DNA from: an uncultured Synechococcaceae cyanobacterium
Lineage (GTDB): Bacteria > Cyanobacteriota > Cyanobacteriia > PCC-6307 > Cyanobiaceae
Assembly (NCBI GenBank): GCA_902634405.1
Contig: CACPJY010000002.1
Coordinates: 62,001-126,000 of the forward strand
Reading direction: 5' to 3'
Length of the DNA stretch: 64,000 nucleotides
Shown here: one piece after another, positions 6,561 to 32,654 of the stretch
How positions within the stretch are numbered: the stretch's first letter is position 1
How the letters are laid out: each line of letters starts with the position of its first letter
Made by a program: the position numbers and the translations under genes
The notes under the pieces: generated by a model
What the model saw: only the letters and a program-made list of their open reading frames with translations
What the model was told of the DNA's origin: nothing
Database searches by the model: none

Positions 6561-6645
6561 TTTTCGTTTTGTGTGCCAGATCGAATATTCGGATCGGCTA
6601 ATCATTTTTATCCTATAGGCTTACTTTTGTATTTGTCACTAACTG

Positions 6646-7518
6646 TTGATTTTTTTATCTTTGGATAACTTGAATAGATCTAGGCCTCTTTCCTATCAAA
6701 TGGCAAGTTGGGGTTTGATTATTTTGCTGGCCTATCTGATTATTGCCTTGATAACGCCTTTTCTTGTTTCCCTAGATTTCTTACCTGACCCAAATTTAGG
6801 TATTGATAATAATATATATGAGCCACCTTCGTTAAAGCATTTGTGCGGTACAGATCGTCTTGGTAGAGACGTATGCGTACGCACTCTACAGGCTTCAAGC
6901 GTGGCTCTCCAGGTGGTTTTTTTGGCAATAATCTTTGCACTACTTGTTGGAGTCCCTTTAGGGATTTCTAGTGGATATTTAGGAGGTTTTGTAGATAGAT
7001 TATTGGTTCTTGTCATGGATACAATTTACACTTTGCCAGTACTTTTAATTTCTGTAGTCCTTGCCTTCTTGATAGGTAGAGGTATAATTAATGCAGCTAT
7101 TGCTCTATGTGTCGTTTATATTCCTCAGTATTTTCGTGTTGTGCGTAATCAGACTGTTCAAGTTAAATCTGAGCCGTATGTTGATGCTGCCAGATCTATA
7201 GGAGCAGGATCATTTTGGATTATGAGAAGATATCTAGTGAGAAATGTAATCACTTCTATACCTGTTTTAGTTTCTTTGAATGCTGCTGATGCTGTTTTAG
7301 TTCTAGGAGGCCTTGGTTTCCTAGGTTTAGGTCTCCCAGAAACAATACCTGAATGGGGTAGCGATTTGAATATGGCTTTAACAGCTGTCCCAACAGGGAT
7401 TTGGTGGACAGCTCTTTATCCAGGCCTTGCTATGTTTGGTTTAGTACTTGGACTTTCGTTCCTCGGAGAAGGCCTGGAGGTTTGGCTTAGTGGTAACAGT
7501 GACCGCTCAATTAGATAA
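6646..7518 (+). CDS. ABC transporter permease, DppC/OppC-like
   Basis: LCGTDRLGRDVCVRTL near N-terminus; EAA-like loop DAARSIGAGSFWIMRRYLVRN; GFLGLGLPETIPEWG. Confidence 0.9.
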   Translation: MIFLSLDNLNRSRPLSYQMASWGLIILLAYLIIALITPFLVSLDFLPDPNLGIDNNIYEPPSLKHLCGTDRLGRDVCVRTLQASSVALQVVFLAIIFALLVGVPLGISSGYLGGFVDRLLVLVMDTIYTLPVLLISVVLAFLIGRGIINAAIALCVVYIPQYFRVVRNQTVQVKSEPYVDAARSIGAGSFWIMRRYLVRNVITSIPVLVSLNAADAVLVLGGLGFLGLGLPETIPEWGSDLNMALTAVPTGIWWTALYPGLAMFGLVLGLSFLGEGLEVWLSGNSDRSIR

Positions 7519-7561
7519 GAGATATTAGTACCAGGAAATATATTTATTTTTCAACTACTGA

Positions 7562-8251
7562 TTAGTATTTAAGTTTAATATTTCTTGGTAGGTCCTCCAA
7601 TATTTCACCTTTCTCATCTATCTCTGGATAACTTTTTCCTTTTTGATTGCACCATTGAGCTATTTCAGGGTATGTCCACTCGAAAAGGCGTTCTTTATAT
7701 AGATTTGGATCAAGGCCTTCTCCTGATATTGGAATGATCCCCTTACGTTGTCGCTGACTTAGTGCTTCAAAGAGAAGTATTGCAGTGGCTACAGATACAT
7801 TTAAAGATTGAACCATTCCGCGCATCGGTATGAAAATAGATTCATCCACCATGCTTATAGCTATATCACTGAGACCCCATTTTTCTGTACCTATAACAAA
7901 TGCAGTAGGCTTAGTAAAGTCACAATGTCTGAAATCTTTAGAGGTTTTAGATAAATTTGTTCCATATATATAGAAACCTTTCTGCTTAAGATTTCTTATT
8001 GCTTCATTGATATTTTTATGATCGTTTAATTTAACCCATTTTTGGCTACCTTGCGCAGTACTGTTAAATGTTCTCGTTTTATCTTCTTTTTGAATGGCAT
8101 TTGCTTCAAGTACTCCTACAGCATCACATGTGCGTAGAATTGCTGAAAGATTGTGGGGTTTATCAACATTCTCAAGTAATACAGTCAGGTCAGCCATTCT
8201 GCAGTCAAGAATGGATTTAAGTCTTTCAAATCTTCTAGGTAATACTGGCAT
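7562..8251 (-). CDS. trmH: TrmH-family tRNA (guanosine-2'-O-)-methyltransferase
   Basis: LENVDKPHNLSAILRTCDAVGV; FVIGTEKWGLS; IPMRGMVQSLNVSVATAI. Confidence 0.92.
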   Translation of the reverse strand: MPVLPRRFERLKSILDCRMADLTVLLENVDKPHNLSAILRTCDAVGVLEANAIQKEDKTRTFNSTAQGSQKWVKLNDHKNINEAIRNLKQKGFYIYGTNLSKTSKDFRHCDFTKPTAFVIGTEKWGLSDIAISMVDESIFIPMRGMVQSLNVSVATAILLFEALSQRQRKGIIPISGEGLDPNLYKERLFEWTYPEIAQWCNQKGKSYPEIDEKGEILEDLPRNIKLKY

Positions 8252-8627
8252 GAGAGCTATTGGGTCATTTTATGAAAGGGCTTTAAAGGCAGTTTCTTTA
8301 ATTCTATTTGGGAACTTGGCACCTTATGCTCAGATTGCAGATTTAACAGGCGAATACGTATCTGAAAGGAAAGTCGGCTGTGCCTTAAGCCGGCTGATAC
8401 TTTCATTAAACGCTCCATGGCATCATGTATTCATTGCTAAAGGACTTGTCTCTAGATTTGTTAGTTGTGTAGGCTCTGATTCGATGCAAAGAGACTTATT
8501 GATTTCAGAAGGGATTGAAGTTGATTCTGGCTTTAGATTGACGTTTCATAAGTATCTTTGCTTTCACCCTTATACTATCCAAACTCCTTTTATTTGCATA
8601 ACAATTTCCTTTATCTGTTATAAATAA
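8250..8627 (+). CDS. MGMT-fold alkyltransferase-like (ATL) protein
   Basis: Internal start MRAIGSFYERALKAVSLILFGNLAPYAQIADL...NAPWHHVFIAKG...QRDLLISEGIEVDSGFRL; catalytic PCHR motif reads PWHH, no active-site Cys. Confidence 0.75.
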   Translation: MRAIGSFYERALKAVSLILFGNLAPYAQIADLTGEYVSERKVGCALSRLILSLNAPWHHVFIAKGLVSRFVSCVGSDSMQRDLLISEGIEVDSGFRLTFHKYLCFHPYTIQTPFICITISFICYK

Positions 8628-21211: not shown

Positions 21212-21485
21212 TGCTAGTCATGATAATTAGCAAAAAGCTTTAACTTAGGTTCTTAAACTAAGATCAAATCAAAGACTTGGCCTATCCTCCGAAGTCAAAT
21301 AAACCTTCTATTTCAGTTTCTTTTTCGACCCATCAAAAAGTCTCACGGAGGAGTAAAACAAAATAAGGACATTCCTAAACTAGGTTTTTCTCGATGAGTG
21401 CTACTCGGTATGATCACTTTTTTGTTTAAGCAGAATTCGAAGAATTCAGTTATCTTTAGTAAGAAATTTAACCATTAATTGAACA

Positions 21486-21803
21486 ATGCTACGCAAGCAA
21501 GAAAAAAATGCAATCACACGAGGAGTCCTACTGGGCTTTGGCTGGGGATGGGGGTTAGATAGGTTTTATGAGGGAGATAAGAAAGGAGGAACTTTATCAA
21601 TCATTGGATGGGCGATCATTTTTACAAGTTTCTTCTATCTAAAATGTTCTGGCATTCAATACGTAGATGGAATCAAGGATTATTCTAACTACAGTCCTAA
21701 TCCATTAATTATTCTCCCCATGATAGCTGGATTATATGGAGCGTATTTGATTATTAGAAAGGCATTTAGATTGGCAAAACAATTTGAAACTGCTGAAGAT
21801 TAA
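21486..21803 (+). CDS. TM2-like small membrane protein
   Basis: GVLLGFGWGWGLDRFYEGDKKGG plus hydrophobic segments. Confidence 0.6.
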   Translation: MLRKQEKNAITRGVLLGFGWGWGLDRFYEGDKKGGTLSIIGWAIIFTSFFYLKCSGIQYVDGIKDYSNYSPNPLIILPMIAGLYGAYLIIRKAFRLAKQFETAED

Positions 21804-21847
21804 TAATCAAATTTAAATTAAAGCGCAACACTTGTTAGAACATTTTA

Positions 21848-22261
21848 ATGAGCCTCAATCTTCTTAAACATATCTCTCTAATCTTTATGGTTTTTCTATT
21901 TATTTTCTCTCCGCTAAAGACAGAAGCCGTCTCACATCATTGGGTTGCAGTTCCAATGAGTCAATATGGAGAGCAGTTATGGGATAAGGACAGTGTTCAG
22001 AAAAACCAGGATGGAACTATGCGAGTTTTTAGTAAATTTATACCTAAAAGCGATACTGAAATAACTCAAGACATCCTTTACACAATGGATATCAATTGTT
22101 CAGAGAATTCATTTAGAGATTTTGCAGTAGGAGCAAAGGAATTTAATCAATTCAAGAACAAGGATTTAGAATGGAAAGATCCCAATGGAGATAAACTAAT
22201 TCTGGGTGTTATCGAACAAGTTTGTACTTTGAGTGAAGATAACGAATCTGCTCTGGAATAA
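21848..22261 (+). CDS. exported protein, surface-adhesin E-like
   Basis: Signal peptide; HHWVAVPMSQYGEQLWDKDSVQKNQDGTMRVFSKFIPK. Confidence 0.6.
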   Translation: MSLNLLKHISLIFMVFLFIFSPLKTEAVSHHWVAVPMSQYGEQLWDKDSVQKNQDGTMRVFSKFIPKSDTEITQDILYTMDINCSENSFRDFAVGAKEFNQFKNKDLEWKDPNGDKLILGVIEQVCTLSEDNESALE

Positions 22262-22407: not shown

Positions 22408-22421
22408 CGGAGAGGGTGGGA
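22408..22421 (+). repeat. distal att core repeat
   Basis: cggagagggtggga, identical to the tRNA-Ser 3' end at 32430-32443. Confidence 0.85.
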
Positions 22422-22474
22422 AACTCCCTAAATTAACTCAAAGCTAGTAATAGCTAGGTTCTTGACGCCTTGTT

Positions 22475-22493
22475 TGTACCACCCTTTGTACCA
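22475..22493 (+). promoter_or_regulatory. putative integrase arm-type site pair (left)
   Basis: tgtaccaccctttgtacca; 15/19 match to 32357-32375, 53 bp from att core. Confidence 0.6.
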
Positions 22494-22573
22494 CTAGTTA
22501 TATGCTGATTTTTAGTAGGAATAGCTTTAAGAAGCAAGATGCAATATAAATATTTTCTGGTTGATCCTTTTCT

Positions 22574-23623
22574 TTATAATCCAGTACCTCTTCCTTTGTG
22601 AAGGTATTCAATAACTATTTGGTGAAATTTATCTCTAATTATTCCCTCCTTTGAGCAACCTTCCAGCAATATTTGTTGTAATTCACGAGCCACAATACGT
22701 TTATCTTCTTTGCTTATCTTTTGAAGATCAGATTGCAATAGTCGATGCACAAGTATTGCAGCATATAAATCTTGAACCATCAAGGAGGACAAAGAATCAT
22801 TATCTTTTTCACTCAAATTATCTAGCTTAGATTTGGCATCCCTTAGTTTTAAACGTGAATCTAATGCTAATTTTTCTCTATATTTAGTATCCCCTGTTAC
22901 AAGGTTTCCTTTAAATGTCTCTTCAATATTTAAATCAATTTCAGGTCGATTTGTTCCCGTACATTCAGAACAAGTTACTGTCATTGCATTATAAGTATTG
23001 TATGGATCCTTATCAATAAAATTCAATATTTTTCCGCATTCCTTACAATGAGTCGGATCAGAGTTTACAAGAATTTCTTCTACTAATAACTCCAAGTTGA
23101 TGTTAACTGTACTATGATCATCATGCAATAAACTCGCGAAAACCAATGCACCCAGACACCCTAAGTTTAAGACCGATAATATAAGCAAAGGAAAGATTAA
23201 AATTAGCAAGGTAAGACTAGGTGGACTTATTTCCTTCATTGCTAAATATGCAGCAACTGCATTCCCTAAAATAAAATTGTAGTGAATCCCAAAAAATACA
23301 ATTATCAATCTTCTAAATAACTTATTTATGCCGATACTATTCAAATAAGCCCGCACCTTTTTGTATCCTACCGTTATACTTGTTGTGAAATATATGATAG
23401 TAAGTATAGGCAATAATGACTGGAAGAAATTTGGATTGGAGCCCATACCAAAGTATGAGTGGTCAAGCATATAATTAGGAGAAAGATTTAATTCACTTAG
23501 AATATTTATATCAAAGTAAGTAAACTCTATTAAAAGAATAAAAGCGAGACTAGCCCAAGAAAATATCTTGATAAAAATTTCTGGATTATCTTTGCTTAAA
23601 CTATCGAATTGCATTCCTTTCAC
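22574..23623 (-). CDS. polytopic membrane protein with zinc ribbon
   Basis: Several TM segments then CKECGKILNF...VTCSECTG. Confidence 0.7.
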   Translation of the reverse strand: MKGMQFDSLSKDNPEIFIKIFSWASLAFILLIEFTYFDINILSELNLSPNYMLDHSYFGMGSNPNFFQSLLPILTIIYFTTSITVGYKKVRAYLNSIGINKLFRRLIIVFFGIHYNFILGNAVAAYLAMKEISPPSLTLLILIFPLLILSVLNLGCLGALVFASLLHDDHSTVNINLELLVEEILVNSDPTHCKECGKILNFIDKDPYNTYNAMTVTCSECTGTNRPEIDLNIEETFKGNLVTGDTKYREKLALDSRLKLRDAKSKLDNLSEKDNDSLSSLMVQDLYAAILVHRLLQSDLQKISKEDKRIVARELQQILLEGCSKEGIIRDKFHQIVIEYLHKGRGTGL

Positions 23624-23985
23624 TTCTTTCTAAGGTATTGATTATCCTTTATTTGTTTTAACCGCTCCTCCCATAGCGTTAATTCTTCAGCCAACTTCGC
23701 TAAGCCACTTCCAGTCTTCCAAATTCTTTGTCCGCACTTAGAACATTTCCAAGTCGGGTCATCTGATCCTGTGCAACAGCCACCAATGCTTGTTTTTCCA
23801 GCTTCTATTGAGGCATCTAATGCTGGGCTGAAATCGGGCAACCCATAAAGAATCTTGGCGACGGGAGAATGCCCACACTTAGGGCACTCCTTAGGGTGTT
23901 GAGAAGCTTCAATTCGTTCCTGTTTAAAGCGAATCCACGCAGACCTCTGATCATAGAATCCTTTTTGACCTGGCTTAAAAGTCAT
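23620..23985 (-). CDS. zinc-ribbon protein
   Basis: Internal start MTFKPGQKGFYDQ; CPKCGHSPV...WKCSKCGQRIW; overlaps the next gene by 4 nt. Confidence 0.7.
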   Translation of the reverse strand: MTFKPGQKGFYDQRSAWIRFKQERIEASQHPKECPKCGHSPVAKILYGLPDFSPALDASIEAGKTSIGGCCTGSDDPTWKCSKCGQRIWKTGSGLAKLAEELTLWEERLKQIKDNQYLRKK

Positions 23986-24160
23986 CGATATAGCGTCTCC
24001 CGTTCGTTTCTCTAGCAAATCTAGAGTGTCTCCAGGCCCTTGCTTCTCCTTTACATACGTCGACATCAAATTGGTATTGACTGGTAAACGTGCAGGTGTC
24101 TTTTGCCTGAACAGGTGCAGTAAGTCCAAGTAATAACGGTGCAAGTAATAGGCGTTTCAT
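23975..24160 (-). CDS. short exported protein with FDVDVC motif
   Basis: MKRLLLAPLLLGLTAPVQAKDTCTFTSQYQFDVDVCKGEARAW; signal peptide; overlaps upstream gene by 4 nt. Confidence 0.6.
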   Translation of the reverse strand: MKRLLLAPLLLGLTAPVQAKDTCTFTSQYQFDVDVCKGEARAWRHSRFARETNGRRYIDDF

Positions 24161-24510
24161 TCACAGCCACTTCTTAATAGGCAAGCCTTCTTTACTGTCT
24201 TTGTACAGATATTCACGTCAAACCATTCCATTGTTGAAGCAACTCTTGGCATATCTTCCACAGCTTTGATCCTGAGATTGCATTTGTTCTCTTCTCGATA
24301 GACCCAATACCAAGGGTATTTATATATCGGAGAGTTCGTTAGTCGTCTAACAAGATCCTCGCCAAAAACATTGTTGACAAGTCTTACTGCTACTTCCTCT
24401 GACTCTCCACACTCAGCAGAATCCCAACAAGTCATTTTATATCGAGTAGGCGGCTCAGCGTAAGCACCTGGAATTGAAAAGAAGAACAAAGCTAGTAAGA
24501 AGTAGCGCAT
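24157..24510 (-). CDS. exported Cys-rich protein, C-x24-C family
   Basis: MRYFLLALFFFSIPGAYA signal; CNLRIKAVEDMPRVASTMEWFDVNIC. Confidence 0.65.
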   Translation of the reverse strand: MRYFLLALFFFSIPGAYAEPPTRYKMTCWDSAECGESEEVAVRLVNNVFGEDLVRRLTNSPIYKYPWYWVYREENKCNLRIKAVEDMPRVASTMEWFDVNICTKTVKKACLLRSGCE

Positions 24511-25127
24511 TAGATTTCCTTCGCGCGTCTTTGGCATACATCAACCTCGAAATATGCATCTTGATATTTATGGGAGGAGAGGTCTCTTACGGCTTTTAAT
24601 TCCATCTTGCAATTATCTGTATATCGAAAAAGTTTAAAGAAAGGATCTTTACCTGAGAAGTTTCTCCAACTATCAAACTTTTTCTTATACCTTCTTTTGA
24701 CAATTTCCACTGCTTGATTTACTGCTTTTAGTTTTTCATCTTCTTCTATCGCCTTTGTGCTCCAAGGATGATTTTCATTGCACGGGCCACCTTCGAAACG
24801 ACTGCCTCCACAAATATCAAAGCTCCATGGTGACTTCTTAGGATCACCCTCATACAAAAGAATGTTTTCAATAGATCCAGAAAGTATTGGTTCTTTTCTC
24901 TGTTTATTTTTTTTGTAATCCCAAGGAATATATCCAAACTGAAAACCTCTCTTAGTCCTCCAGTGACTACCAGACATAGCCCCACCGCAAGTTTCAACAA
25001 TCTTGTCTACAAAGCATTTCTCCCCTTTGCAAATCTGCATATAGCCTTCGCTATCTCCGCAATCTGCTTTCGCTGGTGACGGAATAAATACAAGGAGTGC
25101 TGTTAGGAAGAAGAAGCGCCGCATCAT
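24510..25127 (-). CDS. exported Cys-rich protein, C-x24-C family
   Basis: MMRRFFFLTALLVFIPSPAKA signal; CKMELKAVRDLSSHKYQDAYFEVDVC. Confidence 0.65.
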   Translation of the reverse strand: MMRRFFFLTALLVFIPSPAKADCGDSEGYMQICKGEKCFVDKIVETCGGAMSGSHWRTKRGFQFGYIPWDYKKNKQRKEPILSGSIENILLYEGDPKKSPWSFDICGGSRFEGGPCNENHPWSTKAIEEDEKLKAVNQAVEIVKRRYKKKFDSWRNFSGKDPFFKLFRYTDNCKMELKAVRDLSSHKYQDAYFEVDVCQRRAKEI

Positions 25128-25576
25128 TATTCTTTCGATCTATCCCAAATACAAATAAAGGCTCCGTTGCTTAAAAGGTACTTGGTTTCCCCTCCAGTAC
25201 TACCTATACGACAAGCAGCCTCTCTTCCTTCGGAGAGTTTTTTATAAGTACCTTTCCATATCTCTTTTCCGTTTGATCTGATCGTGGCCTCATGGAATAG
25301 AGGGCGATTATCTGCTCCTCTAATAACTCCATCCATTGACTCATCAGCACGACTATCGTTCGTCAGAAAGGTAAATTCTGTACCTGATCTAATGGGATTC
25401 ACCGAAAACCATTGCTGACCCATATTGAAATGAGCGTTTAAGAGGCAAACATCGCTCAATTGGGGCTTTTCTTTAGAGAGTTTGTAGTCACATCCATAAA
25501 CCATCGGTCCTGAATTGCTTGACGCAATTACAGGCGAAGCGGCGACTAGAGCTGAAAGCAGTAAACGTCGCAGCAT
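25127..25576 (-). CDS. exported hypothetical protein
   Basis: Start reassigned to MLRRLLLSALVAASPVIAS (signal peptide). Confidence 0.6.
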   Translation of the reverse strand: MLRRLLLSALVAASPVIASSNSGPMVYGCDYKLSKEKPQLSDVCLLNAHFNMGQQWFSVNPIRSGTEFTFLTNDSRADESMDGVIRGADNRPLFHEATIRSNGKEIWKGTYKKLSEGREAACRIGSTGGETKYLLSNGAFICIWDRSKE

Positions 25577-25699
25577 TATCAAGAAATCACTTGGTCCTTT
25601 TTCAAAGGATATTGCGATGGCTGGCATAAGCCAGAAATTCAAGGCAAGTTGATAGTCCCCCAAGAAGCCTGCTCAAGAAAATCAGGTCTAATAAAAACC

Positions 25700-26044
25700 A
25701 TGTGTATCCGCCGGGAAGGAGTGCTACAACTGGAAAATCACTTCAAGACACTTGATGATCAAGAGCTTCGCCAATTAGCTTGGGTTTATATGAGAAGACA
25801 AAGAACCACAGCCGATCAGCATATACGAGACATTATTGGTGGCGAAATACTTCACAGACGCAATGAGAAAGTGTCGAAACTCAATAGAGACCTTTGGTTG
25901 TCTACACGTCGGGGGAAAGTAGTAGAAGCTATTAAGCGTCGTCTTGTCCGCTGGGGGGTTTGGAGGGGAATTCTCTATTCAAGGGAAGAGAATTCATCCA
26001 ACCTTTTCTTTTCTCTAGTCAGAGCCTTTTTTACAGAATCATGA
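25700..26044 (+). CDS. hypothetical protein
   Basis: ORF 25649 trimmed to ATG (MCIRREGVLQLENH). Confidence 0.45.
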   Translation: MCIRREGVLQLENHFKTLDDQELRQLAWVYMRRQRTTADQHIRDIIGGEILHRRNEKVSKLNRDLWLSTRRGKVVEAIKRRLVRWGVWRGILYSREENSSNLFFSLVRAFFTES

Positions 26045-26070
26045 GGGAAAACGGTGGTATTTATGCATCA

Positions 26071-26098
26071 GATCTAGGAAGCATATTGCTCCTAGATC
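26071..26098. terminator. hairpin gatctagga...tcctagatc
   Basis: 9-bp perfect stem extendable with one bulge, in the gap between 26044 and 26134. Confidence 0.45.
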
Positions 26099-26133
26099 GA
26101 GAACGCATTAAAAAGAAATCCACCTAAGGCGAT

Positions 26134-26889
26134 ATGAGTAATCCTTTCTTCGACATCATTCGAGCTGGCAATAAAGAGTTTGAAAATGACAACTATGAAG
26201 AAGCACTCAAGCTTTTCCAAACTGCTATAGAGCTTGAACCAGATTCTTACTGGGGATATTTATTTAGAGGTCAGGTTCAACACGCACAAGGAAACTATTC
26301 TGAGGCAATTAACGATTACACGCAATCAATTAAATACAAACCAGATAATTCATCAAGCTACAGTTTTCGTTCTCATTCGAATTTTCAATTAAATAGATAT
26401 GAAGATGCGATAAATGATCTTAATCAGGCAATAGAGATAGAGCCATTAGATCATTATTTTGGTCGAGCTGGGTTTATTAGAGATAAAATGGGAGACCATC
26501 AGGCTGCAATGGATAATTACAATAAGGCCATTGAAATCAACCCAGATTCTCCAATTCACTTTAGTAATCGAGGTTGCTTAAAAAGCGAAATTGGAGATGA
26601 TGCAGGTGCTATAAAAGATCACCTAAAGGCCATTGAAATAGATCCTACTTACTCAGAGGCATATCACAGCATAGGCTCTAAAAAATATGATATGGGTGAT
26701 TTCAATTCTGCTATTGATTGGTATGAAAAATGTGTAACTATCGATCAAAATAGAGGTAATACTTTTTATTTACTGGGGCGCTCATATTGGAATTTAGGAA
26801 GGGAAAAAGAAGCTATAAATAACTTTAAAATGGCTAGTTCATTAGGAGATGAAAAAGCTATTAATTTATTGCAGGAATATGCTAAATAA
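26134..26889 (+). CDS. TPR-repeat protein
   Basis: Repeated TPR units (YxEAINDYTQSIKYKPDN, YEDAINDLNQAIEIEPLD, HQAAMDNYNKAIEINPDS). Confidence 0.85.
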   Translation: MSNPFFDIIRAGNKEFENDNYEEALKLFQTAIELEPDSYWGYLFRGQVQHAQGNYSEAINDYTQSIKYKPDNSSSYSFRSHSNFQLNRYEDAINDLNQAIEIEPLDHYFGRAGFIRDKMGDHQAAMDNYNKAIEINPDSPIHFSNRGCLKSEIGDDAGAIKDHLKAIEIDPTYSEAYHSIGSKKYDMGDFNSAIDWYEKCVTIDQNRGNTFYLLGRSYWNLGREKEAINNFKMASSLGDEKAINLLQEYAK

Positions 26890-27505
26890 GCTTTATAGAT
26901 TAATTCATAGGCTGAGGTTTAGATACCCATGGAGGGATGGAATAGGAGGTTGGGAGTTATCTATGCACTATGACCTGCTGGATCCAGATGATCCAGATTA
27001 TGATGTTCCTCCATACATAAATGTTTGGGAACATAAGGATGGACGTAAAGCCCAAGAAGGACCAGGCTTTTGCTCTGATCCAGATCTGGCTTGGTTCCTT
27101 CTTGAGCAGAAAAAAAATGAACAACTTCAGAGAAGCATTAGCAGAGTGACCGATAAAATTTGTTTTTCTCTAATTGCTTCACAGTGGCTTCTATTGATCA
27201 TTCAAGGAAGCATGAGTATTCCAAATAGTGGTGCTTGGTTTCTTTTTTCTCTCATTGGATACGCTTTAGTCTTTTTAGGTTTAATAGGCTCAGTTGGCTA
27301 TCTTATTAGAATTTTTGCTCCGAGACCTAGAGAAATCAATCAAGTTAAATTCTTCATAAGGTCTGTTCTTGCAATTACTTCTGGTTATTTGCTAATCAAC
27401 ATAGGCAAATTTGATACCTTATATTTAGGCTTTTATGAAATAGAGATCTTTTGGTTTGGAATATATATGGGATTGATAAATGTTGCTATCAAAGATTTAA
27501 TCTGA
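26879..27505 (+). CDS. membrane protein, hypothetical
   Basis: ATG overlaps the TPR gene 3' end; C-terminal hydrophobic segments. Confidence 0.55.
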   Translation: MLNKLYRLIHRLRFRYPWRDGIGGWELSMHYDLLDPDDPDYDVPPYINVWEHKDGRKAQEGPGFCSDPDLAWFLLEQKKNEQLQRSISRVTDKICFSLIASQWLLLIIQGSMSIPNSGAWFLFSLIGYALVFLGLIGSVGYLIRIFAPRPREINQVKFFIRSVLAITSGYLLINIGKFDTLYLGFYEIEIFWFGIYMGLINVAIKDLI

Positions 27506-27532
27506 TTAAACAAAAACTGACTTTAAAAACTC

Positions 27533-28675
27533 TTATCTCCAATCGCTAAATAAATCCAAATTCTCATTCTCTAATAATCCTAAAGTAAGCTTACAAGGAC
27601 CTCCAAGTTGATTGTTTAGTAAGGAATTAGCCTCCTTGCATCCAGCCTGGCCAAAGAGGGTAAGACTGCTAATAGTTTTTTTCGCATCTAATTCACTCCC
27701 CATAAGCTTTTCGAGAGTCATTTCTGGATTATCTAGTTGCTCTTCAATTATTTTCACAACGTCTCTATATCTAGAACCTATAACAGCCGCTGAATAATAA
27801 TCTTTTGCTTCTTGTAAATTCTTAATGCCATATAGCTTGGACTTTCTTGAGTTCCCAAGATAGCTTAGTTGGGGCAATATATACCAAATCCAATGACCAC
27901 ACTTACGTCCTGATTTAAGTTCTTTAATTGCCCTTTTAAAAGTATCTGGATCTCCTTTTTGCTGGGCACCAAATAAAACCTTATATTTTGCACTTCCAAA
28001 TGAAATCGTCTCAGTCCTTCGAAACATTTTTCGATCCTTTTCGATCTTATTCTGTTCGATCTTATCCCAATAATTTTTCATTAGCCAATATCCATCATCT
28101 GAAAAAAGAATAAACATTATTCCTAAAGTTAAAAAGAATGCAATCCATCCATAATTGAGACACATATATATATATGTGATGACCAAGACTAAGCTTGTGA
28201 GAAATATAAATAAGTCAGAGAATATATCCATAAGTCTATATCTAATTCTGTCCAGAGCTTCTTTCTTTTTGGAAGAACGCCTGACTTTTTTCCCATTGTA
28301 AGTTAATGCATCTTCTAGATGATTTCTCAATAAGTTCCTCGTTCTTCTCCTTGAAATCTCTATATCGACAGGCAAATGATTAATATGCTTAACTCCTTCT
28401 TTTGATACAGACACCTCTACAAGGCCTTCTTTCTCCGTAAGAATATGTTTACCTGTTTCTAAACTATTCCAATCAATACCAAGGTTTTTATATGCTTTTT
28501 TGACTATTAAAAACTGATGGACCTCAGATATCTGCCTCCGATTCAATATATCCTCATCTAAAAGATTTACATAGCGATTATCTAATTCATCTATATCAAA
28601 AATTTCTCCATACCTCTCCTGAAAGACTTCTCGTAGCCTTTCCTTGTTAAACACAATGAGCTCTTTTCGATCCAT
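27533..28675 (-). CDS. membrane protein with C-terminal DUF1810 (Rv1873-like) domain
   Basis: Central TM region; FKRAIKELKSGRKCGHWIWYILPQLSYLGNSRKSKLYGIKNLQEAKDYYSA...SSLTLF. Confidence 0.7.
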   Translation of the reverse strand: MDRKELIVFNKERLREVFQERYGEIFDIDELDNRYVNLLDEDILNRRQISEVHQFLIVKKAYKNLGIDWNSLETGKHILTEKEGLVEVSVSKEGVKHINHLPVDIEISRRRTRNLLRNHLEDALTYNGKKVRRSSKKKEALDRIRYRLMDIFSDLFIFLTSLVLVITYIYMCLNYGWIAFFLTLGIMFILFSDDGYWLMKNYWDKIEQNKIEKDRKMFRRTETISFGSAKYKVLFGAQQKGDPDTFKRAIKELKSGRKCGHWIWYILPQLSYLGNSRKSKLYGIKNLQEAKDYYSAAVIGSRYRDVVKIIEEQLDNPEMTLEKLMGSELDAKKTISSLTLFGQAGCKEANSLLNNQLGGPCKLTLGLLENENLDLFSDWR

Positions 28676-28975
28676 ATTTGTTTTTTAGATTGATTTCAAA
28701 GGATTGTGAAAGCCTTGGATGGACCTAAATTAAGTGCAAAAGAGCGTTCACCGAATCAAACATAACTATTTTTACTTTGGATTTACAAGGTCGTCTTCAT
28801 ATAGATAAACCAAAGGGAATCCCCCCTTGGCCTTATGTCTCCTCTACATACAGTAAAAGATTTATTTTTATTTTTATTTTTAAACAAATATTAGAACATT
28901 ATTCATTGATTTATACGTACATATATGCGAGAATAGTTATCAGTAGACACTCAACTCTCAATCGACTAAGTATTA

Positions 28976-29161
28976 ATGAAGACCATCCCTACTGCTAAAA
29001 GACGTTGGAACTCTGCAGTTACTTATCAAACATTTGACCGCATTGAAGACTTCACATTTAAGCATAAGATTCAACTTCAAGAACTTGCTGAAAATCTCTT
29101 CAGTCAGTTACCTGATGAACTTCTAGAACAGTATGCCTTGAGAGAGAAGACTATCCCCTAA
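28976..29161 (+). CDS. small protein upstream of helicase, possible regulator
   Basis: 61 aa, same strand as the helicase, 57 nt upstream. Confidence 0.45.
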   Translation: MKTIPTAKRRWNSAVTYQTFDRIEDFTFKHKIQLQELAENLFSQLPDELLEQYALREKTIP

Positions 29162-29218
29162 CAAAACAAAACCCCTGACTAGATAGCCAAGGGTTGTTGT
29201 TACTACTTTTATAATTCT

Positions 29219-30559
29219 ATGACTACTAATCTCTTATTGCAAGAGAGTCATTTTCGTGTATCTAGCACAGGTTCTCTTGTCCTGAATATTGATGATCAAC
29301 GTATCTTAGATCTGGGTTATGCCAAGATCTCAAACATTAGAAGTACAGATCTCATATACGTTCTTGAAGCTCTTCAAGCATCTGAAACCTTCCGTTGGGA
29401 CAAAGCTAAAAGAAGAGTTCTTTGGGGAGATCAGCTTCTAACAGAGGCTGATATGGAAGTACTTCATTTGCGACTTTCTAAAGAACACGGAATTAACTTC
29501 CCTCCTAAGCAAACACGCTTAGCCATTGAGGCAATGGCCCTGAAGAACAGCTTTGATTCCTTTGAAGAGAAGCTTCTGGAGATTGAACACTTAGTTGAAC
29601 CGATCCCTATCAATAACCTCAGTACTCGTTACTTCAAAACTAAAAAGCCTATCTATGACAAGTACCTTGAACTTTGGCTTGTTAATTGGGTCAAACGTCA
29701 ATTAGAGCCTGGTTGCTACAACCGCACAATGCTTGTGGTTCAAGGTCCTCAAAACATCGGCAAGGATCAGTTCGTCAAGATCCTGGCGGGAGACAACAAC
29801 AGCACTTCAGTTGGTTGCACTGCCAACTTCAAAGACAAAGATCTTTTAACAACCTTCAACAGCAAGAGTGTTCTCCTTTTTGAAGAGCTAGAGCAAACCA
29901 CTGGAAGGGTGGTCGAAGGAGCTCTGAAATCTTTCCTCTCAGAAACCAGTGATAGTTACGTGATGAAGTACAAGAGTCACGCAGAGGACTATCCCCGTCG
30001 TTGTAGCTATTGGGGTTCTTGTAATAAGCAGGAATTCCTTACTGATCTAACTGGCAATACAAGGTTCCACGTCATACCAGTTGAAGTTGACTCAAAGAGA
30101 GGTCAGGCAATAGACCTAGAACAACTCAAGAAAGAAAGAGAAGCAATCATTTCAGGAGCAATAAAGCTTTATAGGAAACACAAAGAAGGTTTTTATTCAC
30201 TTGAACTCACTCAAGATGAACGCAGTCAATCTGAAGATCTAAACGCTAATTATCTAGAGGTCTCTCAATACGAAGAGCCCTTGGCAGAACTACTAGAAGG
30301 TCGTACCGCTGTATGTATGGACGAGATTCGTGAATGCATTGATCTCACTCTTGGCTATATCGATAAACGAATGGAGAAGGAAATCAAGAAAGCCATGGGA
30401 GCACTTGGATTTAAAGCTCTTCCTTCTCCTAGAAAGGTTCGATGGGCTGGAGGGGACAAGTCTGTGAGGCCATGGATTCGAAATAATGGGCCCCAACCTG
30501 ACTACCTTGAGATAGCCGACTATTACCAACCGAAGCAGAGAGGTGAAAGAGATTTTTAA
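29219..30559 (+). CDS. VapE/VirE-family (SF3-like) helicase/replication protein
   Basis: VVQGPQNIGKDQFVKILAG; VLLFEELEQT; SCNKQEFLTDLTGNTRFHVIPVE. Confidence 0.85.
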   Translation: MTTNLLLQESHFRVSSTGSLVLNIDDQRILDLGYAKISNIRSTDLIYVLEALQASETFRWDKAKRRVLWGDQLLTEADMEVLHLRLSKEHGINFPPKQTRLAIEAMALKNSFDSFEEKLLEIEHLVEPIPINNLSTRYFKTKKPIYDKYLELWLVNWVKRQLEPGCYNRTMLVVQGPQNIGKDQFVKILAGDNNSTSVGCTANFKDKDLLTTFNSKSVLLFEELEQTTGRVVEGALKSFLSETSDSYVMKYKSHAEDYPRRCSYWGSCNKQEFLTDLTGNTRFHVIPVEVDSKRGQAIDLEQLKKEREAIISGAIKLYRKHKEGFYSLELTQDERSQSEDLNANYLEVSQYEEPLAELLEGRTAVCMDEIRECIDLTLGYIDKRMEKEIKKAMGALGFKALPSPRKVRWAGGDKSVRPWIRNNGPQPDYLEIADYYQPKQRGERDF

Positions 30560-30616
30560 GAGGCTTTAGTGATTGACGGCTCTTTTAGATAAGGCTTAGG
30601 CGCAGCCTTCTACAGG

Positions 30617-30714
30617 AAACTACAAAAACACTACCTAATTCAAAAAACTACCTCTTAACTACATCTCGACTACTCGACTTTCGATGCACCAGAAGGTGAC
30701 TACAGAAACTACAA
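30617..30714. repeat. iteron-like cluster of seven (n)actac motifs
   Basis: actac at 30619, 30630, 30647, 30658, 30669, 30699, 30708 (spacings 11,17,11,11,30,9). Confidence 0.65.
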
Positions 30715-30821
30715 CTTTTTAGAGAAACTCTTTTAGGAATAAGAGTATAAAGAACCTTCTAAATAGCTTCTATATAATTCTATGTAGTCGTTTTATTTAT
30801 ATATACGACCAAGGCCACAAC

Positions 30822-32351
30822 CTAGTGATCAATTAAAAGGAAATCTATTGTAGATACAATTTCATTGAGTCTCTCAATCTTAAAACCTTGGCCATACATA
30901 TTACTTACTTCTTGATTACTATGACCTCGAATAGAATCCATAATTGATTGATCTAATCCAGGGATCTTTCCAAAATGATCCCGTAAAACATCTGCGTGAT
31001 AGTGCCTTGCTGAGTAAAGAACAACCGTTAAATCTTTGATCTGCAACTCTCCCCTAAGAACTGTTTTACTCCACCTTTCAGACCACTTGGAGCTTACTTT
31101 CCCATATTTGTCTTCTCTAAGATCTTTGAAAACCCTCTCTCCTAGTGAAGCCTCTCTTACAAAAGCCTCTAAACCAAGTTCAATTAAACACTTAGGGATA
31201 GGGACATCTCTAAGGCTATTTTCTGTTTTAGGAGCGGCTTTATTAATGTCATTGATTTGCAAATACAACTTACCGTTCTGATCTTTTTTGAAATCACCTC
31301 CCAACAAAGAAGCTGCTTCCTCATTCCTTACACCAGTGGCAATCATCAGCAAAGGAATCCATTTGTCAGCAGGGCTTTTGCCTTCTTCTAAGCAATTGCG
31401 AACTATTTGTTTTACTTCTTCTGAAGTGAATGGACGTCTATCAGATGCTTTGCTTCGTTTAATAGTGAGATTTTGATTATTAAAAGGGTTATGCCAGTTC
31501 TCAATTAAGCCATCTTTCTTAACACTATTAGTTATCGACTGAAGATGGACAATCTTGTTCTTGATTGTTCGAGGTTTTAGTCCTTTGTGAGATTTGTGTC
31601 TCATCCACTCTTTGACATCTTTTCTAGTAATACTCCTCAAACTTGAGAGTTTTGTATCTGCCAACCACTGTTTAGCAGTGCTCTTAAATGTGTCCCGAGT
31701 TTTTAAGTTCTTCTTATCTCTTGACCAGTACTCCCAAGCTTTAAGCAAATCAAGGTCAGATTCTTGTCCTCTTGAATACGGATCTTCTGGATCTGTAAGA
31801 CCCTGAGCTCTGGATTCAAGCGTTTTTATTGCTCTTTCAAACGCTTTCTCAAACCGATAAGAAAGCTCAGAGATATCAATCTTTTCTTTATGCAATTTTG
31901 TCTCTTCTTCGGCGATAGCATCAAACCTTTCTTCTATGTAAGTTCGCACTCCATTTCCATTGTCACTACAAGGAAGTCCATACGCTTCTAGAACATCTCC
32001 AGCCTTGAAATGCCTACCGTCATAAGAGTCTTCGAACTCCTGCAAAAGCCTTCTATAAAACTTCCCTGTTATTACATTGAGTTGGTTAGGTGTTACCTCA
32101 GCTGATGAAATTTGGGGTGATAGTTTTACACCCTCTTTTGCTGCATTAATTATTGCTCTGAATTTGTCTTCTATTGGGGGGCCGAGAAGTTTCGCTCTAT
32201 TCAAATCTTTCGTTCCAAGAGATTTTTTTAGCTCTGTCTTTCCAATAACCGACCTCAAAGATTTAGGAACAGCAATCCTTACTCCATAAGTTCCTGCCCG
32301 TTGATACAAAGCCAATCGACGAAATCGATAATTTGCACTGATGATAGACAA
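30822..32351 (-). CDS. tyrosine recombinase / phage-type integrase
   Basis: TGVRNEEAASL; YSARHYHADVLR; IRGHSNQEVSNMYG (R..HxxR..H..Y); N-terminal SAM-like domain; TTG start. Confidence 0.93.
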   Translation of the reverse strand: MSIISANYRFRRLALYQRAGTYGVRIAVPKSLRSVIGKTELKKSLGTKDLNRAKLLGPPIEDKFRAIINAAKEGVKLSPQISSAEVTPNQLNVITGKFYRRLLQEFEDSYDGRHFKAGDVLEAYGLPCSDNGNGVRTYIEERFDAIAEEETKLHKEKIDISELSYRFEKAFERAIKTLESRAQGLTDPEDPYSRGQESDLDLLKAWEYWSRDKKNLKTRDTFKSTAKQWLADTKLSSLRSITRKDVKEWMRHKSHKGLKPRTIKNKIVHLQSITNSVKKDGLIENWHNPFNNQNLTIKRSKASDRRPFTSEEVKQIVRNCLEEGKSPADKWIPLLMIATGVRNEEAASLLGGDFKKDQNGKLYLQINDINKAAPKTENSLRDVPIPKCLIELGLEAFVREASLGERVFKDLREDKYGKVSSKWSERWSKTVLRGELQIKDLTVVLYSARHYHADVLRDHFGKIPGLDQSIMDSIRGHSNQEVSNMYGQGFKIERLNEIVSTIDFLLIDH

Positions 32352-32356
32352 AAAAA

Positions 32357-32375
32357 TGTACCTGGTTTTGTACCA
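32357..32375 (+). promoter_or_regulatory. putative integrase arm-type site pair (right)
   Basis: tgtacctggttttgtacca directly upstream of int, 54 bp from the att core. Confidence 0.6.
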
Positions 32376-32429
32376 AGCACGTCAAAAACTTTAGCTATAG
32401 CTTAGATCCCTTGCAGGAGAGCAGTTAAA

Positions 32430-32514
32430 CGGAGAGGGTGGGATTCGAACCCACGGACGGTTTCCCGTCAAACGATTTCGAGTCGTTCGCTTTCGACCAC
32501 TCAGCCACCTCTCC
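32430..32514 (-). tRNA. tRNA-Ser (CGA)
   Basis: GGAGAGGTGGCCGAGTGGTCGAAAGCGAACGACTCGAAATCGTTTGACGGG...GGGTTCGAATCCCACCCTCTCCG; class II with variable arm; anticodon CGA. Confidence 0.97.
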
Positions 32515-32654
32515 AAGGTTGATTAATTCTAGGTCTTTGCTTATCTCTTAAATGAGAGCCCATTTAAAAGTTGTCGTGATTATTTTAAAAGTTTTTTTCT
32601 GAAATAGATAGCTTCTAAAACTCTTCTTCTGTATAATATCATATTTATAATTTA

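Follow-up and report, generated by a model that had tools for sequence, protein, structure and literature searches.

In SaPI origins, iterons lie on both sides of AT-rich DNA. SaPI Rep is a self-loading helicase whose C-terminal domain recognizes iterons that directly follow the rep gene; SCCmec Cch2 likewise uses its C-terminal domain to bind iterons, of the 5-nt word AAGTG, located right after its gene (both PMC7581432). The PLE satellites of V. cholerae have a RepA–iteron origin in a noncoding region (PMC7145576). We analyzed a 64-kb stretch of DNA (hereafter, the window), part of a 1.56-Mb draft assembly most closely related, among named genomes, to Prochlorococcus single cells, and identified a short-repeat array next to a VapE-like helicase gene. 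Judged from its sequence, the region at 30619–30812 is very probably the replication origin (ori) of an integrated element.

Hackl et al. are said to have described, in 2023, tycheposons with integrase clades of their own and seven tRNA sites. A second-hand account presents those of Prochlorococcus as tRNA-anchored elements with a tyrosine recombinase and cargo (PMC10872708). The array studied here belongs to an element (window 22408–32442) integrated into a single-cell genome of the Prochlorococcus family. The element's length, ~10.0 kb, follows from the exact repetition of the last 13 bp of a tRNA gene, CCCACCCTCTCCG, at 22408 (Table 1). The integrase gene reads away from the tRNA-Ser(CGA). 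The element also carries a cargo gene (27533–28675) with a hydrophobic middle, a C-terminal DUF1810 domain and no PADLOC match, and a series of short ORFs (23620–25663), several of which start with signal-peptide-like hydrophobic stretches and none of which, among those tested, matched a family. Searches of the scanned element proteins with Pfam, PHROGs and PADLOC gave no phage-inducible, packaging or interference genes, which is weak evidence. In another cell, AG-404-B19, the tRNA-Ser(CGA) site (L018, 3332–6430) contains a truncated version of the window's integrase and several more CACCCTCTCCG half-sites (3550, 6420), as if elements had stacked and were decaying at one tRNA; the window genes at 21416–22246 are found again in the same locus at 7273–8259.

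Table 1. Features of the integrated element and its repeat region (window coordinates)
Feature	Position	Strand	Remarks
Second exact CCCACCCTCTCCG copy, proposed far end of element	22408..22420	-	
61-aa ORF just upstream of helicase	28976..29161	+	kept in L017
VapE-like (SF3-class) helicase, 446 aa, proposed initiator	29219..30559	+	PF05272 E=3e-43; 7pds profile match
Iteron array, seven direct ACTAC	30619..30712	+	fuller consensus in clade (T)GACTACC; five of seven kept in L017
AT-rich tract, candidate unwinding element between/around direct and inverted iterons	30713..30812	.	25% GC
Single inverted iteron (GTAGT on +, ACTAC on -)	30784..30788	-	far side of AT-rich DNA; kept in L017
Integrase, tyrosine-recombinase type, N-terminal DUF6538	30822..32351	-	PF20172 E=1e-13, phrog_1 integrase
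att core CCCACCCTCTCCG at tRNA 3' end, 13 bp	32430..32442	-	
tRNA-Ser(CGA), integration site	32429..32515	-	

The first-pass annotation had listed seven copies of ACTAC on one strand, several of them at 11-bp spacing. All positions were exact: the copies start at 30619, 30630, 30647, 30658, 30669, 30699 and 30708, with start-to-start spacings of 11, 17, 11, 11, 30 and 9. An eighth copy, inverted and absent from that list, lies at 30784 within the AT-rich stretch. Among all pentamers of at least three letters, the ACTAC array forms the densest cluster in the 64-kb window. As a null model, we used 200 dinucleotide-preserving shuffles of the whole window in 2-kb blocks; there, the densest such pentamer reached 4 to 6 copies per 95 bp and never 7, while ACTAC itself never exceeded 3, so that none of the 200 shuffles matched the observed cluster density. 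A loose three-repeat pattern has one occurrence in the whole genome of the window's cell.

The AT-rich stretch noted earlier at 30760–30810 is real, with a GC content of 23.5%. Because 6.4% of the 51-bp windows here have an equally low GC content, the tract proves nothing alone and is supporting rather than striking. The array had been placed directly after the VapE-like helicase, and it indeed begins 60 bp past the stop codon. The integrase gene is convergent with that of the helicase, and the array region is therefore flanked by two 3′ ends, at 30559 (helicase) and 30822 (integrase). Within this region, single-strand DNA folding indicated no structure (z = –0.1), the Rfam search matched no family, and the terminator search found none.

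The closest relative of the element was found in Prochlorococcus AG-436-C13 (L017), with amino acid identities of 78% for the integrase and 89% for the helicase. The direct iterons retained there have unchanged spacings (11, 11, 30, 9), the inverted iteron is found at 6585, and the TATATATAAATAA stretch of the AT-rich tract is identical. Counted from the end of the integrase up to and including the array, the iteron bases are identical at 30 of 30 positions, compared with 94 of the 147 remaining positions (Fisher p = 7e-6); for the array by itself, the corresponding figures are 25 of 25 and 24 of 41 (p = 6e-5). A 396-aa ORF with no Pfam match (L017 6750–7940), seen in this locus only, separates the array from the helicase by 1.3 kb and leaves it adjoining the 3′ end of the integrase, and direct adjacency to the helicase is therefore not required.

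To find more distant relatives, we scanned 400 genomes of the family with the helicase and, separately, with the three-repeat pattern, and both scans converged on contig 10 of genome G347 (L104). This contig encodes a 782-aa helicase, 39% identical to that of the window and ending at L104:6326, past which come six direct copies of GACTACC, ~100 bp of DNA whose core is A/T-rich, and finally inverted copies. An 820-aa helicase in genome G113 (L105), 45% identical to the window's and containing a PriCT_2 primase-type domain, has the iteron word GGCTACC/GGTAGCC flanking AT-rich DNA on both sides. Other matches to the three-repeat pattern were rejected: those in G139 and G174 were arrays within porin-like coding sequence, that in G011 lay within a tRNA-synthetase-like gene, and that in G403 was beside unrelated genes. 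Scans of viral contigs with the helicase and integrase gave no relatives, and phage records contained distant VapE relatives only, about 25% identical.

The four helicases (window, L017, L104 and L105) form a clade with support of 100. Each has an ACTAC or GCTAC array on its 3′ side in constant orientation, with the relatives at 89, 45 and 39% amino acid identity, and the layout is common to all four loci: iterons, a pair of iterons with 8–9-bp spacing that borders the AT-rich gap, the AT-rich DNA and, 75–104 bp on, inverted iteron(s), of which there are one in the window and several in L104 and L105. A search for relatives with the same helicase but lacking the array thus found the array kept in every clade member, down to 39% identity, in a sample of four members, two of which are 89% identical to each other.

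Outside the clade, about 30 other VapE-type helicases (roughly 25–36% identity) had no comparable ACTAC or GCTAC array, with 0 to 4 scattered sites per 630 bp. We then applied a motif-free test to 56 VapE loci, calling clusters of short repeats not more than 380 bp from the stop codon at p <= 0.01 for at least one word length. Significant arrays were found at 18 of the 56 loci, versus 0 of 54 control regions lying 500–900 bp past the helicase stop and 0 of 23 at the 3′ ends of DUF6538 integrases; about half of the scanned VapE loci had no significant array. At eleven further loci (including L094, L002 and L131), left out of this count, repeat clusters are confined to the 3′ part of a long helicase frame, whose stop comes 370–950 nt after the helicase alignment ends; such clusters could be iterons or origins in coding DNA, or protein repeats. 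The window's own array reached only p = 0.03, since the test admits any word in a 400-bp stretch, and its strength rests on the clade comparison and the shuffle test. Where close relatives exist, the repeat words track the helicase tree, with AACTCA in three tree members (four loci) and AGGTTGA in two, and several of the non-ACTAC arrays also include inverted sets around a T/A-rich tract.

The window helicase gives a profile match (E = 5e-22) to 7pds, a solved structure named "similar to D. nodosus vapE." The C-terminal ~90 amino acids of the window helicase are conserved across the four-member clade and, by analogy with the known initiators, are the proposed iteron-reading part. Comparison of the C-terminal profile with the PDB gave chance matches only, and an AlphaFold2 model of the helicase built from two sequences was unusable (pLDDT 36). 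The N-terminal extension of the G113 and G347 helicases is missing from those of the window and L017, so that priming would there come from elsewhere. In all four clade helicases, the Walker-A lysine is followed by D rather than S/T (GPQNIGKD, GAQNIGKD, GKQYIGKD), whereas many others in the set have GKS or GKT, and all four terminate in Asp-Phe.

The first-pass annotation had read the array and the AT-rich tract as a candidate origin and named excisionase or integrase accessory sites as the alternative. The array could indeed consist of accessory (arm-type) sites for the integrase or an excision factor, as its place in L017, beside the integrase and apart from the helicase, would suggest. Yet it is 1.6 kb from the att core in the window, and the arrays of two distant relatives follow the helicase well away from the integrase, which disfavors this alternative: in L104, the helicase lies between array and integrase, with about 2.5 kb separating these two, and in L105 they are kept apart by about 1.6 kb and an ORF resembling a serine recombinase. 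With no repeat array at any of the 23 integrase 3′ ends either, we consider accessory sites unlikely. An operator, bound by the helicase or another protein of the element to control transcription, is a quite improbable alternative: short repeated binding words are generally known from operators too, but the position after the helicase recurs in relatives, and with convergent 3′ ends and no promoter or terminator excess between them, there is little to regulate.

Elements of this kind may be packaged by a helper phage, and tycheposons are listed among proposed satellites (PMC11389934), which would fit a region serving a phage satellite as its packaging or concatemer site. Among the element proteins tested, however, none was recognized as a packaging or capsid protein, and the array is linked to the helicase rather than to packaging genes, making such a site very improbable. 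Finally, the repeats could be due to chance or be leftover low-complexity intergenic DNA in an AT-rich genome; this is scarcely credible given the shuffle results and the base-level conservation of repeats among diverged spacers. The origin interpretation is thus supported by a cluster far beyond chance, by conservation at the base level and by linkage to a helicase clade, and it is very probable because distant helicase relatives keep both the words and the layout while other helicases often have their own words at this place.

On the model of the known initiators, the ACTAC iterons would be recognized and bound by the VapE-like helicase of the element, probably through its C-terminal domain. 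Loaded at both flanks of the AT-rich tract, the helicase would melt the tract and then unwind the DNA in the outward direction. The element itself would be excised as a circle, which a host or helper polymerase would then copy. We see an even chance that, more generally, many of the elements integrated in marine picocyanobacterial genomes are true replicons whose initiator–iteron pairs can be swapped, each VapE-helicase lineage having a private repeat word and its origin at the 3′ end of the gene. If so, sequence would predict which elements replicate and which compete for one initiator. The question bears on the mobility of tRNA-anchored islands in the most abundant phototrophs of the sea. 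With a locatable origin and a named initiator, replication of the excised element is directly testable by a read-depth peak, a binding assay or a mini-replicon, and the wider pattern of arrays after helicases provides a rule for locating origins in other such islands.

Among the described systems, tycheposons, as known from the second-hand description, resemble the window's element in their Prochlorococcus-type host and in being tRNA-anchored with a tyrosine recombinase and cargo. PLE likewise has a satellite iteron origin in a noncoding region, but its initiator is of the RepA_N type without helicase activity and its iterons are longer. As in the window, the SCCmec iterons are 5 nt long and closely follow the helicase gene, although Cch2 belongs to a different helicase family (D5/Primase_Cterm type) and SCCmec has three iterons in place of seven plus one. 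Among the papers searched, none contained both "VapE" and "iteron," which is weak evidence of novelty. From SaPIs, the window differs in its iteron word, in its picocyanobacterial host with no phage induction known and in that no primase gene was recognized beside the helicase. It is like them in having a VapE-related helicase, by the PF05272 and 7pds matches; in having several short iterons right behind the helicase gene, though displaced by 1.3 kb in L017; and in iterons on both sides of AT-rich DNA, with one copy only on the far side. By this analogy, the region would work like the helicase–iteron origins of SaPI and SCC, a kind of origin already known.
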